Shown here one piece after another: positions 2,198 through 43,600 of a stretch of DNA of 64,000 bases. Below the pieces are notes generated by a model. The model had not been told where the DNA came from. It ran no database searches and worked only from the letters and a program-made list of their open reading frames with translations. The stretch covers positions 8,946,591 through 9,010,590 of the forward strand of contig NC_061776.1 in assembly GCF_022458985.1 (NCBI RefSeq), read 5' to 3'. This stretch comes from Mugil cephalus. Taxonomy: Eukaryota; Chordata; Actinopteri; Mugiliformes; Mugilidae. Made by a program: the position numbers and the translations under genes. Every line of letters starts with the position of its first letter. The first letter of the stretch is position 1.

Positions 2198-5100
2198 TTA
2201 CTGGCCCTGTGCAGAAGAAATACATAGAAGATACATTGCATGTTAACAGCGGAAACAGTGGACTCAGCTTCCCAAAATTAAAAAGCTAAAAAGCCTGTGG
2301 GGAGGAAATGGGTTTGGTTAGGTTTGCGAGAGGCGGCTGCAGACACGGGAACCCTGTAAAAACCTGAGGAGGGAAGGAGGTCACGGCACAAAATGACTGA
2401 GCGGACAGTGAATGTGGCGGGGAGATTCTTATCAGGGGGGGTGTACCTGAGGGGCTTGTGGTGCCGCGCCCATGGTCTGAGGGTTGGCCGTGCCGTAGTA
2501 CGCCGCCTGCTGCCGGTAGTACTCCGCCCAGGCGGCGCTGTAGTCCGGCTGGCCTCCGGGCTGGGAGGCTGCAGGCGCTGCTGCAGCCTGAGGGGCAGCT
2601 TGACCTGGAGGAGGGAGGGAAGAACCAACACGGTCAAACTAGACCCCCATAAAAAAAACTTTAACATTTCTCTGGGTGATATATGCAACAGCAGTAGCTT
2701 TTTGAACCAATCAGAGCTCTGAACATGAGTCAATGCTTCATGCAGCGTGCAATTTTCATCTGATTTCATTGTCCCAAATAGATGTTTTTTGCAAAAAAAG
2801 GTTGGAATGATAAGATCTTAACCACCTCTAATAAAAAAAATAAGGTTTGTGTCATTTGTTTTGCAAGAAATAACGTTACGTGTGATTTATCATTGACATA
2901 ATTACTGTTGCTTAAATATTTAAGGAGCACAACAGATGATTTTTCAACCTGCAACTCTCCTGTAATTTACTTTTTTGGTCACAGGGGTCGCTGTTCCTCA
3001 AAGACTAGTCTCATAATTTAGGCTAACTGGTAAAAACCAGGGCTTCCCACCGATACCCCAGTCTTAATCCCTGATTTTATATACTATGAACCTTGGAAAT
3101 AAAGCCGGAAGTGGGCGGAGCCTGGAGTCACCATGTTGGATGAGATTTACTCCACCCACATTTGGACCAATCCCCCAATTTTCTGCTACCTGTTAGCTCA
3201 GGCTACCAACGGTCACTCAAAGAGGGAATGCCCTTAATTATGAAGAATTTTAAACCTTAATAAAAAATAAACGAATGATTTAGGAAAAAACATGTTTAAC
3301 AATGCAGTAAAGTTGGACTTTATAACATTGGGGTCTATGGTGATTTTCTCCATTTTGGAGCCTCAAGTGGCCACTTGATGAACTGCAGATTTTTGCACTT
3401 GGACATGGACTTGATCGCTCAGTCCCGTTGCCGCATGGTTTTAACTCTTTTTTTATCGACAGTGGATGCAAATTACTTTGAAAATTAACTGTTAGTGTTT
3501 CAGCTAAATAAAGACTTATTACTTTTACGGAGACTGGCCTCAACAAGGAACTTGTTAATGGTTGGATTGTTCTTAAATTGTCTTAATTCATTGGTTAAAA
3601 GTCTAAAGAGTACATATAAGTGTAAAAATAAGTGTTTGAAAACCTAAAAACATTCAAGACGCTGGAGCGTTTGTAAGAAGGGGAACGAACCCACCACCAA
3701 CGCCTCCGAGTGGTGGGTCAGAAACCTTCTGCTTTCCTTTTTGGGCGGCTACGAGAACAGCAACTCTACAACAGAGGGCTGCTAGTGTTAGCAACCACCC
3801 TTCATCATTCATCTGCAAAACGGTATGAAAAGCATCCAAAACAGACGCCGCAAAACTAAACAAAAGGCCCAGACGAACCTTGTTTCTTGTAATACTCCTC
3901 CCAGGCTTTCGTGTAGTCCTGAGGTTGTTGACTCTGTTGACCTGCAAAGAGAAGAAAAAAGAAAAAACGTCAACGCGAGTGTCGAATTTAACAACAGAAA
4001 CAACATTAACCCTACGTTGCTTACATCCATAAGCCACAAATCAAACATGTGCATCATGTAAGTCTACACGCATTCAAGTAGCAGTAAAGCATTCATGACA
4101 CGTGTGTGGATGAAGCCCTGAGATAGTCTAGACAAATAAGCTGCTCTGAGATCATAAAGGTGGTTCTGTGTCCACAGCTCAGTCCTGTAGATAGTCAAAA
4201 GTGTTGCAGTCTAAACAGCACAGGCATCAAGTGTCAAACCAAAGTGGAGGCGAACTGCTCCACAGCAAATGCTGACAAATACCCAGACCTGAAAAAGAAG
4301 CTGACTGCGTGTGGCCCAGTGGCTGTTTAGACTGTCTTGTGTTAATAGATGAACACTGAAACTACGTTCATATACCCATTTTCTTGTAATATTCCTCCCA
4401 GGCCTTGGTGTAATCTGCCTGTCCACTCTGACCTGCAGCCTGTGGGTCACCTGTTAAAAAAAACGGTACTTGTAATTAGTGAATCATTCGCAGCAGTTTG
4501 TCCTCCACCTGCCTGGGTTTGGTTGTCAGCCTAGGGGTGGTGGAGGAAAACTATCCTGTCCCTGGGGTTAATATATTTAAAAAAAAAAGAAAGAAAGAAA
4601 AAGAAAGAAAGAAAAGAGTTGACGTCAGTCCAATTTGTCTTCAGTTAGCAACACCAGGAAGACACGAGCACAGAAGGCTACTTCAGTAACTCTACTCGGC
4701 TACTCTGCTCTACACTGGCCTCGACAGATTTAGCTTCCGCTACTAGAAGCGCACACTTTTGCTAGCTTCGTGCTAATTGAGGACAACGTCTGTTACCTTG
4801 GCCGTTGGTTTGAGTCGTGCCAGGAGCTCCGCTGGTCGGGGTCATGGGAGCCTGTGGCTGCTGACCGTACTGAGCGTAGTAAGCCGCCCACGCTGCAGCG
4901 TTGGCATCAGCTGCTGCTTTATCTGTTACCAAACAAAGGCCAAGGTAAGAGCTATGAAAATACAGTTTAATCTATCTATGTTGTAAAGTATTATAAAAAC
5001 TCTGACTAACTGATCTCTGGCCAACTAGTCACTGATCTGAATCTCTCCCTGCAAAGACGAAAAAGATATGTGATGCAGGTACTTACTTGGATCTGGCTGT

Positions 5101-8100
5101 CCCTGCTGCCAGTGTGGGTAGCCGTTGCCCCACCCCTGAGGCTGATAAGGAGCCGGAGGACCACTGGAGTGAAACAAAAAACAAAAAAATTACCCATCAA
5201 CTCTCCACATCCTTCATTTGTGTTATTATTTACTCATAGATAAAAGTTAATAAATATAAAATGCACTTACTGTGGCCCTGGAGGCCCCTGGTTGTATGGT
5301 CCCGGGTTGTAGGGACCCATGGGAGCACCAGGAGGCCCGGGTGGTCCCGGGGGTCCGTGTGGGCCTGGTCCTCCGTGTGGACCGGGAGGACCGTGTGGGC
5401 CGCCCATCGGAGTGACGGGTCCCTGAGAAAATAACCGAGAACGAGGTGGGATGAGAAAACGTACACAGGGTTTCTGCAGGTTTGAATAAGGACGATCAGA
5501 GACCTAGAACTAATATCTACATCAACTCAGGACAATGAAACATAAGAGGCCGGGGCCACGGGGGCTCATACTCCAGACGAAGTGCAGTATTTAAGGATTT
5601 GAGACCTATAATGCAAAATAAGCTCATATTTAAGACTTTTTAAGGCCTTAAATTGTGATTATCCAACTCCAGACTTTTTAAACTCTGTCATAGACGCACG
5701 GTTTCATAAACCACAGACCAACACTCACCCCGATTTTCTCCTCCACCAGCTGCCTGGCGTAGTCAATCTGTTGAGGGGAGCCTCTAACAGTGAACATCTT
5801 TATGTTGGGGTCGGCGTTGGGCGGAGGATTCCTCTGAAGCTCGATTCTGGCTCCTGACTGCTGGCTGATGCCTTTGATTGTCTCACCGCCTGGAAAAGTT
5901 CAACCACATTGAGCAAAAAATTAAAACGAGTGACCCACTAAGCAAAAGCCTCAAGCCTGTTTTTCCTCATCGATGCTGATATTAACTGACCTTTTCCTAT
6001 GATCAGTCCGGTTTTCATGGTCGGGACTGTGAAGGTGAACTCCTGCAGACCACCCGGGGGCCCCATGTTCCAGTTGCCCTGCCCGCGGCCACGTCCTCTG
6101 CCGCCCCCGTGTCCCGGTGGTCCTCCGGCCTGGACGCTCCTCAGCAGGTCGGAAATGATTTCTGCCGCGTGCTGAGCCTGGTCGGGAGGCCCCATGATCT
6201 GTGCTATCCTGTCTGGTGTGCTGCCGTCATCTGGAGGGAACAAGCGTGGAAGGGGGGTCATTAGAAAACTACACAAACAACGTGATTACGCTAAAGGGTA
6301 GCTTCTTCTAAATGTCACTGAATGAAATACGTGGCTTTGATTGGGTCTCAGATAGTTTAGGGTTAGGGTTATACATCAGCTTTTCAGCGTGGTGCATGAG
6401 TTCTCATCATAGACCATAAACGGAGATAAAAATAACTTGTTTCTGTCTTCACCTGGTTTGAACTGAATCCTGACACCTGTGTCGTTCTGTATCTTCTTGA
6501 TCATTTCACCATTTCTCCCAATGACGATTCCCACTGCAAACCGCGGCACGGGAACCTGAACGGAGACGGGAGGAGAAAAAAAAACATAAACAGGAGACCA
6601 CATTTAAACCACCGACATAAACCCAGGCTTCTAATCTGAGAAGAAACACCAGGTGAGGAAACACTCACGTCTAAACTGTCTCCTCCACCTCCTCCGACCC
6701 TCGAACCGTACTCGCCCCTCTGCTCCCTGAAGCCCTGGTCTCTGATCAGCTCCATCACCATCTCTTTGGCTTGCTGAAGACAAAAGGAAGGACATGTGAA
6801 TACAGCACAGTCTCCAAAAGAAGAATATATATACATTTATATATAAAATTTGATAAAATCCCCCATCTACAACATTAATATATTGCACTATTTCAGAAAA
6901 AAATGTCTGTTGGTGTCGGCCCTCATAACTCTGAGGCCATGTTCACAAAAATACGATTTTTGGGTGAAACCACATGTCTTGCACGTTTCTGCTGGGCGCA
7001 CCTTTTAAACAAATCCAGGTCCCAGAGTGAAGAAGAAAAATAGAGAGCCCCAAACATGTGATGCCTGATGTGAACACGACAACAGCAATGGTGGACTATG
7101 GACAATGGTGGTCGCCACTAGGATTACAGACTGTATGTTTGTATACAGCGCACAGGGCTGATGCACATGCTTTTTTAAGGGATATGCATTACAGCCTTTT
7201 TATAACTAGGTGTGGTTTTACAATAGATCGACCTTTTAGAGAGAAATTCTCAACACAACGCCAACGTCGAGAATAAAAAGATCATTTTGCTACATGTGAA
7301 CGTGGCCGGAGTCTACCAGAGGGGTAAAAAAAAAAAAAAAAAAGAGATGTCCGTCTTAGATAAGCAGATGAAAACTCACCTGAACTTTAAAAGGTTCTCC
7401 TGAAATGCGGAGTGGCTTGTCTGCGCCTGTGTTTTGGGGTCCGTCTTGGATCATGACCATCTTCACTCCGGCTCGTTCCTGCAAATCCAGGCAAATCAAA
7501 ATTGTCAGCGTTTGTCCCCTTGTGGCTTTAAAACTTTGTCTCTAATCTGACTGGACGTTACCTGAAGGCTTTTGATCGTTTCTCCTCCTTTTCCGATCAC
7601 CAGACCGGCTTTAGAAGCAGGCACCATGATCTCCTGAACAGTCATTCCTGGACCGTCGTTGTGGTGGAACGCCGGGGCCGGACGTCCCTTCTCGACTATC
7701 TCTGTTAACAACCTCTTTGCAGATCTGTTGGGAGAACAACCACCATCACACACCGTCTGCAAACATCAATAAAGACCAGAGACGATGCTGCTCCTGGTTA
7801 GAGGAAACACTCACTGGATTGAATCTGGTGACCCCGTTAACGTCACCGACCTGTCGGGCATCCCGCCACTGTCTGCAACACAGGAAAAGGGAAGTGTTAA
7901 CACAAGTTAAAGCACCAACATCTGAGTATCAACAGTGAAACCAAACCTACCAGGAGCGATCTGTATTTTACACCCAGACTCCTGCTGGAGACGTGATATC
8001 TGTTCACCTCCTCTTCCAATAACTAGAAGAAAAGGAAATAATAAAAACATTAAATACAAAACACCACAAGCATTTAATTTTTTATTGTTTCCCATGTAAA

Positions 8101-10014
8101 TAAAAACTTACTGAATCCAACCATTCCGTCTGGAACCTTGAATTCTTCAGACGCCGACCTGGAAATTAAACAAAACAAATCAGTGTGAACATCAAAAAAC
8201 AACACAGCCAGTGTGTGATTGGTACATGCTTTTAAATGTAATTTGTATCTACCTTGGAGGACCGCCCATTCCTCCAATCGCTGAGAAGGCTGGAAAAACA
8301 AATGTGAAAGGTATAATTCAACCAGAGCATCAAACCTTCAACACGTGCAGAATTTTACTAGATGTGGGAAACGATCACAGGTCTCAGTCGCGGGCGTCAC
8401 TTACCATCGTTTGTGGCCACTTTCTTTGTCTCTGGTTGGTCTGTGACAACATAACATAATAACCAGCATCAGTACCTCTAGTTAAACTTTCTCTATCACT
8501 ACTAGGAGTGACAATCACTTCAGAACACTGAAACGGGTTCGTTAACGCTCTGAAATTTAAAATGTTAGGACGTGATGAAGCATAGTGCCCACACAGCTCA
8601 CTTCTTCTAAACATCAACAGATGAAAACACCTGGTTGTGTAGAGGTCTCAGATAGTTTAGGGTTAGGGTTATACATCAGCTTTTCAGCGTGGTGCATGAG
8701 TTCTCATCATAGACCGTACACAGGTTAAACTGAGATAAAAAAAAAAAAAGACGTCAGGTAGCGCCTCTGCTCTTTTATGACTAAAACAGGTTTGTCAACA
8801 CAATCTGAAATTTAAACGGTTAGGACACGAGAAGCACACATCAGTCTACACACGTTCAGACCTGGAGTACATGTTAATCTGGTTAAGTATTATACACAAA
8901 AAAAAGGACAAAGAGGGGCGTGGGCGCAATTTGGGAGGCTGCATATGCTTGTTTTTAACCAACAACACACTTCTCCACACTTCTAAACCAGTTTTAACCC
9001 ACTACAACCGCAGTGAATCGCTCTAGCAAAGTGAAACTGAAACAAACATCAACCCAACGCCCTTTATTATAAATTATTAGTGCGTGTATAACACTGGGGG
9101 GACTGACTTCAAAGATCTGTGAAGACAAACAGTGGGAGAAAAAAAACACATGCCAGGACCAGCACACACTGCACAGGCCACACAACTCGGGAAAATCGTA
9201 GTTAGTAGTAATGCACAGAGTGTTAGACTATCAGGTGATAATGCACGTACAAAACTGTATTATTACACATTATGTTGAGTTAGGAACACTTTCTGAATAC
9301 AATGTAGTAGTTGCTAAGACACGCAGGCAAGCATTAACTATGAAAACTTGCATTGAAATCGATTTGAGCCACTGACCGATATTCAGGTTAGGCATGGGAA
9401 AATACCCACCAGCGTCCTCCAGGGGCCTTTTCTGGCCTCCATAGCCAAACTCGCTAGACGGGGGAGCCGCAACGCCATCACCGCCGATCTTTGCTGCGAT
9501 CTGCCGAAAACAAAATAGATGGGGGGGAAGAAAATAGAAGAAAAGGCGACATTAGAGGTGTTTTCGTCTGTGGATCATGTATTCAGAGAAACGCGCGTCC
9601 TGCGGCCTACTCTTCCGTACGGAAGTCTGAACCAACAAAGGAAAGCTTCAAGTTCCACTTTACGGTAATGGTTGGTATTATTATTCCACAAAAAAAAGAT
9701 AACTGTTTTCTGAGTGTTATAATATTTGTGATCAAGTACTCCGCCAGTACTATTTTTGTTGTTGTTTTCACGTCTGTTCTACGTTTTGTAGCGTGGTCAT
9801 TATTCGTTAGCTTAGCTTAGCCTAACGTTACCGCGATCTGGTGCGACAGAAAAAGTCGCCCCTCGGCTTCCGCAAACCGAATAGTTTCACATTAAATAGT
9901 GATCGGTCGGTCATTTTTTACCTGTCGTGCTCGCTGTAAGGCGTCTTTAAAAGCATCGTTCATTCCGCCACCGGCGTTAGAGGACGGGGGAGCCACGCTG
10001 CTGTAGTCCGCCAT
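2198..10014 (-). CDS. fubp1: Far upstream element-binding protein 1 (KH-domain single-strand nucleic-acid binding regulator), 20 coding exons
   Basis: Coding exons in transcript order: 9922-10014, 9410-9500, 8405-8440, 8253-8289, 8112-8158, 7951-8022, 7815-7872, 7562-7724, 7380-7478, 6669-6773, 6453-6555, 5991-6230, 5729-5889, 5271-5422, 5087-5163, 4797-4922, 4376-4450, 3879-3941, 2447-2604, 2198-2206. All frames close, giving 654 residues (human FUBP1 is about 644). The start [12 protein letters not shown] matches the family. Four KH domains show GXXG loops: IIGRGGEQI (exons 5-6), VIGKGGETI (8), VIGRNGEMI (11) and IIGKGGETI (split 12/13). A G/P/H-rich linker follows. The C-terminal transactivation region has repeated tyrosine motifs such as [12 protein letters not shown] in exons 16-19. 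The last coding exon is only GQ-stop. The family binds single-stranded FUSE DNA (for example at MYC) and regulates splicing in the nucleus. fubp3 and khsrp are paralogues, but the N- and C-termini and the dnajb4/gipc2 neighbourhood favour fubp1. Confidence 0.95.
3040..3470. repeat. Probable interspersed-repeat remnant in fubp1 intron 18
   Basis: The long intron 18 (2605-3878) contains phrases typical of dispersed fish DNA repeats, for example a segment around AGCCTGGAGTCACCATG (near 3120) and GAGCCTCAAGTGGCCACTTG (near 3357). No complete element ends or coding sequence can be defined by eye. Confidence 0.35.
6344..6415 (-). ncRNA. Box C/D snoRNA candidate, copy 1 (fubp1 intron 11)
   Basis: Read on the minus strand, the 72 nt begin GGTCT, then C box ATGATGA, a 16-nt spacer, D' box CTGA, C'-like TGATG, a 22-nt spacer, D box CTGA and GACC. 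GGUC/GACC forms the terminal stem expected of an intronic box C/D snoRNA. It lies in sense orientation inside the 222-nt intron between exons 11 (6453-6555) and 12 (5991-6230). The spacer before D' contains CATGCACCAC, complementary to GUGGUGCAUG of 18S rRNA. The spacer before D contains TAACCCTAACCCTAA. Known function of the class: guiding 2'-O-methylation with fibrillarin in the nucleolus. I cannot assign it to a named snoRNA family. Confidence 0.8.
8644..8715 (-). ncRNA. Box C/D snoRNA candidate, copy 2 (fubp1 intron 2)
   Basis: All 72 nt are identical to the copy at 6344-6415, including both C/D box pairs and the GGUC/GACC stem, while the flanking intron sequence differs almost at once. 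It lies sense to fubp1 in the 969-nt intron between exons 2 (9410-9500) and 3 (8405-8440), about 200 nt upstream of the 3' splice site. Identity confined to the mature-RNA boundaries, in two different introns, is what duplicated intron-encoded snoRNAs usually look like and supports both copies being functional. Confidence 0.8.
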
Positions 10015-40600: not shown

Positions 40601-43600
40601 CACATTAAAGGGATCAAGAAGGAGGTGGAGATCTATAAAGCTGAAGACGCCCTGGGCCTCACAATCACCGACAACGGAGCAGGATATGCTTTCATAAAGG
40701 TGAGGAGGAGAGGGCACGTTTCACGCCGAAATAGCTCAGTTGGGAGAGCGTTAGACTGAAGATCTAAAGGTCCCTGGTTCGATCCCGGGTTTCGGCAGGT
40801 TGAAGATCTTTTTGGGAGGTCGTGGTTAAGGCTCTCATGGGCAAGTCTGAATATACACACTTTTGGGGGAACAAATTGAAAGAAAATGTTGAGAAACGCA
40901 TCATACATGCATGTGGAACAAAAATAAATAAAATATTACCTTAATCCGACTTTAACTGGACAATTTAAGTGCATGTAAACACGTTAGTCGGAGTTCTCCT
41001 TAGACACCCTGATAATCTGTTTGGAAATGATTTTCTATGGCATGTATATGCCTAATCGGACTTTAACAAGTCTAACAATGGTGTGTGCTTGCTCCACAAG
41101 CCCGTCAAAGGCAGAAGAAGGTAGAAGAAGAAGGTGAACAGAGTCGGTAGCAGGACCGTCTCAGGGATAGTGCATATCTTATCTGCACCATAAGCATCAC
41201 ACGAGATTAAAAAAAGCTTGTTTGAAATGCAGGTCTACCACAATATCGACTCCAGTTCTTTATTATATGATGTAATAACCTCCTGAAAAGACACATATCG
41301 CCACCTAGTGTGGAGGAGGAGGACATGTTCCCGTCAGATACTTGATTTTCTCTGTTCCATGTAAATTTGGACAAGGACCACGTTCAGAAAGTCGACTCCA
41401 TTAAGCTGTATCATAACATTATGATGGTAATGCAGTCATTTGCCACTTCATGAGGTACACTAGTGAAAACTAATGTATTATAATATAACAGTCCTGCATT
41501 AAATCTTAGCTTCATGAAAGATGGACTTAGCGTTTTATAGTTCAGTGTTAAATTGACGCAGAATCTACTCCGATAGTTCAGCCCCTATGCAGACCATAAC
41601 ACTGTAACTAACGTCCACCTCCCCAGAAATGTAACTCAAGAGTTGTGACTGGTCCCCTTGCTAGTAGCACTTTCATATTTCCGGCTGCTTCTCCATCTCC
41701 GCAAGTTTCAAATTGATTGAAGATGAAACACGTTGAGGAAAGTTAAACTGGGGAAGTTTGAAGATACAAACATTTGTACAAATCGTCCTCGGCAAAATTT
41801 TGGCAAAAGCAGGAAGTAGAAACAAACATGAAGCTGACTGGTTAAAAAAAAAAAAAAAGACACAGCGCTAACTAGTGTTTGGGTGGTGTTATTACAGAGT
41901 GAACCAGACTGAGGAGCACACAAGTATAAATGTTTCACACTGGCGTAGGCTACGTGGGTAAGTTACAGTGTCTGTGTCTGGCATTATCCTAAAGGAGTCT
42001 TTAGTCTTACACTATTGATCCACAAGGGAAATTTATTGACCCCAGTAGCTCAGTTGCACATAGAAACACTCTTGAAATCCACTATAATGTTCTGTATTTG
42101 TTCAAAATAAGTGAGAAAGCTGTTAACAGCACCACAAACTACATCCTCCAAAATGATCACACTGTTAAATTACCACCTTTCTGACGCTATTTCAACATAA
42201 ACTATAAACACTATAGAGATTTAGTGAGTTTAGTCAATAAAATACAGGTTATGTGTCAAAATCAGACAATCAGATGTGCTTTTATTCACCAAGAAACTTT
42301 CTAATCTCGCTGACCTTCTTCCACTCCATTGACTACATATTCAGTCTCAGTCCATAGTTCAGTGCGGTATGTAGCGGCGTGTGTTGGTGGATCCTGCTAT
42401 AATAATGAGCTCATCAATTTACAGTCTCTTGTAATGTTGCCTCTTGAAACCAAACTGCTCACATGTGCCATCCTGTGATGCTGAACCAGCACTGCATCCT
42501 GATCACCTGACCCTCTCTGAAGGGTTCTGTTTAAGTGTCTCTTAAACTTCTTTAAGACATGCTTTATTTTAGTTGAGTCAGTTCAGTTGAGTCAGTTCAG
42601 ATTTAATTGTTTCCTCCTCTCACGTCTTCATTTATCCTCCTGAGACCTGAGCTTTTGTTTGGTATGCATTTTTAATTTCGCTTTATTTACGATTAGTAGG
42701 ACCTAAGAACGATAAAGAACTAAGCATCGTCTTTGAGCAGGAAGTAGTTTTTGGAAAAAATTATGTCCTCATGTGTGGACGCTGGGATTATTTTGTATAA
42801 TATTATTAATATAAATTTAACAGCAATATTACAATAAAGTCACCAATGTGTATTGAAATATAAAACTGTTACTCTGTAACATTGCAAATAATGAAGTCCC
42901 AACATCCTCAATCGAGTTCTTGCTAATTAGCGAAGTTATAGCTCGTTACTATTGACAGAATTTTTGGTCATGTTAAATTAGAAATGTTAATGAGCATAAA
43001 TAAACTGTACAATTGAGGTTTTATTACCTTTTATACTTTTATACCTTGATAAAAGTCTAAATGAAGCAGAATAAGCTGCCATAAACCTAGAACTTAACGT
43101 CCCCATATGAGGACACAGGATCTCAGGAGGTTAAACCTTCAGCTTGTGAAGTCTAAATCGGGACCTACACTACAAAAAAGTCATTTTAAGATCCTTGTAT
43201 CAAAGAAATACATCTTATATTTTGTTCTAGAGACTACAACTTGGTGCTTTTAGTGCTCTACATTATTATGTTTTTATTGTTTTAATGTTTTAATAGTTTT
43301 TATTGTTTCATAGCTTTTAATTGTTTTGTGTCTTATGCTCTTATTTTACCCATGTTCAGCACTTTGTCTCGGCTGTAGTCATCGTTTAAAGTGCTATATA
43401 ATTAAAGCTGAGTTTAAGTTGAGAACTTTGTGCTTATTTTAAGAATTTTTTGGCAAGTTTTTTTTCTGTACATTCTTAATAATTCTTTACTCCTTCTGTG
43501 CAATAAATTGTTGAACAGAGAACTTTATATAGTTTTAAAGAAGTGGGAAAGTTTTAAAATGATCAGCAAAATACTGTTTTGTTTTTCAAAAGCAGAACAA

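Follow-up and report, generated by a model that had tools for sequence, protein, structure and literature searches.

Two identical box C/D snoRNA genes in fubp1 introns of Mugil cephalus, a duplicated pair likely to guide 18S Gm1328

The 64,000-nt stretch of Mugil cephalus DNA analysed here (NC_061776.1, positions 8,946,591 to 9,010,590; "the window", with positions counted from its first letter) contains fubp1 on its minus strand, and two introns of this gene each hold a copy of the same 72-nt box C/D small nucleolar RNA (snoRNA) gene. Judging from the sequence, we consider it very probable that the copies are a cis-duplicated, intron-encoded pair that guides formation of Gm1328 in 18S ribosomal RNA (rRNA), and that they belong to a family of six genes, of which three lie in kpnb1, one in ccar1 and two in fubp1. 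The copies and their introns are as follows, with boxes named by standard usage.

6344..6415, minus strand: snoRNA copy A in fubp1 intron 11, from sequence and box reading (C 6410-6404, D' guide 6403-6388, D' 6387-6384, C' 6378-6374, D 6351-6348; terminal stem GGTC/GACC)
8644..8715, minus strand: snoRNA copy B in fubp1 intron 2, from sequence and box reading (C 8710-8704, D' guide 8703-8688, D' 8687-8684, C' 8678-8674, D 8651-8648)
6231..6452, minus strand: fubp1 intron 11, host of copy A, whose 3' end lies 113 nt ahead of the 3' splice site
8441..9409, minus strand: fubp1 intron 2, host of copy B, whose 3' end lies 203 nt ahead of the 3' splice site
8636..8722, minus strand: copy B extended by a further flanking stem, UGUGUA/UACACA, predicted by folding and missing in copy A

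The two copies are alike at 72 of 72 positions, a match reached by none of 100 shuffles. A DNA search of the animal's own genome (634.8 Mb, 24 contigs) with the 72-mer listed only the fubp1 copies; it scored two candidates, and diverged relatives such as those in kpnb1 and ccar1 are beyond its reach. Read 5' to 3', the RNA begins with GGUCU, a C box (AUGAUGA), a 16-nt D' guide, box D' (CUGA) and AAAGC, and continues with C' (UGAUG), a 22-nt spacer, box D (CUGA) and GACC. It thus has the anatomy of a box C/D snoRNA: a terminal stem closes the ends, next to which stand C (RUGAUGA) and D (CUGA), and inside are D' (CTGA), directly preceded by an antisense element, and C' (TGATG). The predicted fold of the 72-nt core includes the terminal stem (z score −3.25; 1 of 200 shuffles equally good). 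When 10 nt of flank are added on each side, copy B gains its extra stem and a z score of −4.51 (0/200), and copy A gains none (−2.00; 6/200). A tblastn search with the human protein as query traces the minus-strand fubp1 exons from about 10014 down to 2447. Introns are numbered from 12 exon segments counted from splice sites, some bounds being 1-2 nt off, and exons 3 and 4 were placed by splice-site reading. A preliminary description of this DNA had reported the identity, the four boxes with their GGUC/GACC stem, host-sense box C/D genes and introns 11 and 2 as hosts. All of these hold in our analysis: the boxes and stem are present in both copies, both copies lie on the minus strand like fubp1, and the splice-site count places them in introns 11 (6452-6231) and 2 (9409-8441).

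The D' guide most likely points at the equivalent of 18S Gm1328, one well-known rRNA mark. As target reference we used a provisional human 18S sequence of 1869 nt. Against it the fubp1 guide forms 11 bp with one GU pair, the duplex starting from position 2, and none of 200 shuffled guides did as well. The fifth nucleotide upstream of box D' faces G1328 (human numbering), the arrangement of a Gm1328 guide. The other four distinct sequences of the family face the same G1328 over 10-12 bp, equalled by 0-3 of 200 shuffles, and a partial 18S piece of the animal's own assembly, on contig C18, keeps the target letters GTGGTGGTGCATGG. The partial, diverged ribosomal DNA (rDNA) pieces lie at locus L043 3477-4496 (C18) and L046 2827-4186 (C1); six 28S pieces were seen on five contigs.

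The relatives were found by pattern. A C box followed by CATGCACCA and D' occurs at six places in the genome and at none in the reversed control: two in fubp1, two on C20, one on C13 and one at C7:14863183. The last (L034) fits the loose pattern and was dropped, having no closing stem like GGTC/GACC by eye. Importin beta-1 TPR domains identify the C20 host as kpnb1. The C13 host has SAP and LAIKA domains, and we take it to be ccar1. This naming agrees with a SNORD98 match at the locus (49.5 bits against a cut-off of 50), because CCAR1 is the published host of HBII-419/SNORD98, as passages of PMC2653536 and PMC8210301 state. Neither host is a fubp1 paralogue, since tblastn with the FUBP1 protein gave chance-level pieces (best E 0.25). 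A broader pattern, CATGCACC[AG]C.?CTGA, matched 32 sites (15 in the reversed control). We read 31 of them; the other, C21:2781251, comes after two neighbours that are nearly identical and similarly spaced. In 6 of the 31 a C box ([AG]TGA[TA]G) lies 12 nt upstream: both fubp1 copies, three in kpnb1 and one in ccar1. The third kpnb1 copy has a C box of GTGAAGA:

L045 6805-6871: third kpnb1 copy

At two further sites a C-like box lies farther upstream, by 47 nt at L055 and by 93 nt at L052. Both were set aside on inspection, and L055 looks coding by eye. In viral contigs the D' guide pattern TCATGCACCACNCTGA gave 27 stretches, with TGATGA 2-30 nt upstream in none of the 27.

The C-to-D' module is thus common to six genes in three hosts, with five distinct sequences, and the fubp1 sequence is distinct from those of kpnb1 and ccar1. 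The spacer on the D side differs between fubp1, kpnb1 and ccar1. A covariance model built from the five sequences gives its own six members 78-93 bits, by construction, and the next best place, in rpl13a, 18 bits. Within the kpnb1 locus SNORA79 (L045 5952-6095, 78.8 bits) lies among the three C/D copies, and the ccar1 member has a weak SNORD45 match (28.9 bits against 42).

The rpl13a locus holds two genes of the SNORD33/32 family:

L047 2019-2102: U33-type gene in rpl13a
L047 2291-2373: U33-type gene in rpl13a

Both carry ACAUGCACUACCAU before box D, which pairs with 18S over 13 bp, two of them GU, and points to U1326. The 6001 bases of rpl13a also hold one SNORD34 and two SNORD50 matches above cut-off, and no U32-type guide was seen there. 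An RF00133 search of the genome gave two matches, both in rpl13a (59 of 82457 candidates scored), and neither this search nor the broader pattern found a SNORD32-type guide elsewhere in the genome, though a diverged one may escape both. Since U33-type genes are the only SNORD32/33 members found in rpl13a, the six genes may be the main suppliers of the Gm1328 mark in this genome. After splicing, the fubp1 introns would be debranched and shortened to the 72-nt RNA. This RNA would bind fibrillarin and the C/D proteins and, through the letters upstream of box D', pair with 18S to direct 2'-O-methylation of the G matching human G1328. The expression and processing of these genes, the methylation and the supply of the mark by them are what we infer from their letters.

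How did the pair arise? The preliminary description held that similarity ends at the snoRNA boundaries. It does not: the flanks are related. In the best stretches, 17 of 19 aligned positions of the 5' flanks are alike after a 9-nt indel (89%), as are 30 of 40 columns of the 3' flanks (75%). With two lengths and two scorings, 0, 1, 1 and 5 of 1000 shuffles reached the 5' score and 0, 0, 11 and 2 of 1000 the 3' score. In a second test of the fubp1 pair, 0 of 500 shuffles did so for either flank. Among the six genes (15 pairs, two flanks each) a few other low scores appeared, attributable to chance or old kinship; the lowest, 1/500, was for the 3' flank of fubp1 intron 2 against kpnb1c. Because the flanks are homologous, a segment longer than the snoRNA must have been duplicated between the introns. 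As its sequence reads, the pair arose by duplication from one intron to another of the same host; the outside drifted while the inside stayed identical. The earlier contrast of diverged flanks with a perfect core was therefore right in substance, and what it missed, the homology of the flanks, points to intragenic duplication. Selection explains part of the identity, that of the guide and boxes. The 22-nt spacer differs from host to host and is not the same even in the two closest kpnb1 copies, so its identity in fubp1 speaks for recent gene conversion (homogenisation), a rather young duplication or some further constraint. As a separate observation, the 3' flank of copy B (8527-8641, minus strand) has a diverged second copy upstream in intron 2 (8780-8889, minus strand; score 71, 0/500 shuffles). 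Each of these two segments has a splice-acceptor-like TCCTAAC...TTTAAATTTCAG by eye, and no snoRNA was recognised by eye beside the upstream one.

Several observations weigh against a Gm1328 guide pair. A second 18S piece of the animal's own assembly, on C1, has an extra C inside the target (GTGGTGCCATGG). The 18S target letters are those of the provisional human reference, and searches of the own assembly returned partial, diverged rDNA pieces alone. In the six-gene comparison, which covers one fish genome, the flanks in fubp1 resemble each other more closely than those in kpnb1 do, and a younger duplication alone could thus account for some of the identity of the core. Finally, the Rfam check proposed in the preliminary description gave RF00300 (snoZ221_snoR21b) as the best match at both fubp1 copies, with a score of 36.4 bits that is under the cut-off of 44.

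The four relatives in kpnb1 and ccar1 likewise score 29.7-37.3 bits with RF00300, below 44. For RF00133 (SNORD33/SNORD32), with its cut-off of 44 bits, no match was listed at the fubp1 copies up to E 10; one kpnb1 relative scores 30.9 bits. A genome search with RF00300 returned no match (52 of 74515 candidates scored), which does not mean absence, since even the six known genes were missed. All six score best with RF00300 and below its cut-off, which indicates a gap in Rfam: annotation by Rfam cut-offs would miss these genes.

It is possible, but unlikely in our judgement, that the fubp1 copies are silent by-products, duplicated or converted recently enough for their letters to be intact, while the kpnb1 and ccar1 copies carry the methylation. 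Four further genes with the same guide make for redundancy. The favourable distance from a snoRNA to the 3' splice site is 70-80 nt, and both fubp1 copies lie farther from it than that. Copy A is also without a predicted external stem. Yet all boxes and the terminal stem are intact in both copies, even though their flanks match only at the 75% and 89% given above, and the external stem of copy B may aid its processing. We favour a pair of Gm1328 guides over silent copies.

The spacer between C' and D raises a separate question, because it contains a perfect telomere-type repeat of 15 nt in each copy:

6357..6371, minus strand: telomere-type repeat TAACCCTAACCCTAA, D-side spacer of copy A
8657..8671, minus strand: telomere-type repeat TAACCCTAACCCTAA, D-side spacer of copy B

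That the spacer serves as a second rRNA guide seems very unlikely. Its best pairing with 18S is 9 bp with one GU, at U1728 of the human reference, and 19 of 200 shuffled spacers are equally good. On 28S, for which a provisional 358-nt piece alone was used, it forms 7 bp (48 of 200 shuffles as good), and the spacer is not kept across the family. Still less credible is a dual-function snoRNA whose D-side spacer pairs through TAACCCTAACCCTAA with telomeric repeat-containing RNA (TERRA) or the telomeric G strand. The 15-mer is the C-strand telomere repeat, telomeric 12-mers in the window are restricted to the two snoRNA genes, and the spacer is identical in both fubp1 copies despite diverged flanks, unlike the spacers of the two closest kpnb1 copies, which are not identical. 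Against (UUAGGG)n it forms 15 contiguous bp from position 6 upstream of box D, with a mismatch at position 5. In this register contiguous pairing does not extend over position 5, and because of that mismatch canonical methylation of telomeric RNA is not expected. The repeat is missing from the kpnb1 and ccar1 members. Moreover, the 15-mer has 2859 matches in the genome (16 for the reversed control), with tandem runs counted several times, so it is plausible that the spacer acquired it by chance or insertion. Among the matches listed, such places occur inside C1, from 0.7 to 31.3 Mb. By a hand estimate from the 2859 matches, the odds that a random 72-nt stretch holds TAACCCTAACCCTAA are about 4e-4 at most. 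A two-headed snoRNA, its D' side methylating 18S Gm1328 and its D side tethering the small nucleolar ribonucleoprotein to TERRA or telomeric G strands, we consider very improbable. The telomere repeat is probably incidental, and the D-side spacer probably does not act as a guide.

Another candidate lies in a late fubp1 intron in host sense (3670-3802, minus strand). It is of H/ACA type, with a sub-threshold SCARNA3 match (30.3 against 47 bits, E 0.017) and a hairpin-hinge-hairpin fold with ACA near the 3' end (z score −3.43; 0/200 shuffles as good). A genome search with RF00565 at E 0.001 gave no match with 41 of 47404 candidates scored, so absence is not shown by it. The window also has a transfer RNA gene at 40725-40797 (plus strand, 69.8 bits).

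Among the papers listed by a literature search, no title or abstract start named FUBP1 as host of a snoRNA, although a zebrafish methylation study (RNA 2020) may list it. Neither PMC2653536 nor PMC3349704 contains the word "fubp1" in its main text, and a phrase search on a fubp1 intron or GGgCD25 returned the chicken paper alone, with no FUBP1 host. As for the suggestion of a fish-specific or unannotated host relation, these searches brought up no FUBP1 host, but the snoRNA type itself is not fish-specific, according to passages of PMC2653536 and PMC8053127.

Among the closest known systems is chicken GGgCD25, described in sections of PMC2653536 as two copies in KPNB1 introns 4 and 7 whose 5' guide addresses 18S-G1286. 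It resembles the fubp1 pair as an intronic C/D snoRNA with two copies per host, a D' guide and an equivalent 18S site, and KPNB1 is also a host in this genome, with three such genes. The kpnb1 copies seem to lie in late introns, so their numbers may differ from chicken introns 4 and 7. GGgCD25 is 89 nt long rather than 72 and its host is KPNB1 rather than FUBP1; the likeness is one of site and arrangement, not of letters. The same sections ascribe almost all chicken snoRNA paralogues to intragenic duplication, and they equate GGgCD25 with snR40, plant snR21 and human U32A/B. The likeness to yeast snR40, named there as the equivalent for the 18S site, is by description and not by sequence. In plants, 18S G1275 of Arabidopsis is assigned to SnoR21 in the part of PMC8053127 consulted. 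In their alignment the fubp1 copies and snoR21/snoZ221 (RF00300) share the D' guide core UCAUGCACCAC, and the target is equivalent, but the model is 19 positions longer, and SnoR21.1 sits in a polycistronic snoRNA cluster, unlike the fubp1 genes. Human G1328 is assigned in an excerpt of PMC8210301 to SNORD32A in RPL13A, the same methylation site as here. Human U32, however, guides from the D side. PMC2653536 calls U32A/B double guiders and describes a split of their functions in chicken, whereas the fubp1 copies use the D' side, with no second target evident. The guide type is thus already known from other vertebrates and plants, and its function is mostly ordinary; what we describe is this known type duplicated, as an intact pair, in a host not found in the literature searched. 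With the 18S Gm1328 guide in kpnb1, ccar1 and fubp1 here, and with U33-type genes in rpl13a, the human home of U32A, a change of host for an ancient rRNA guide is indicated.

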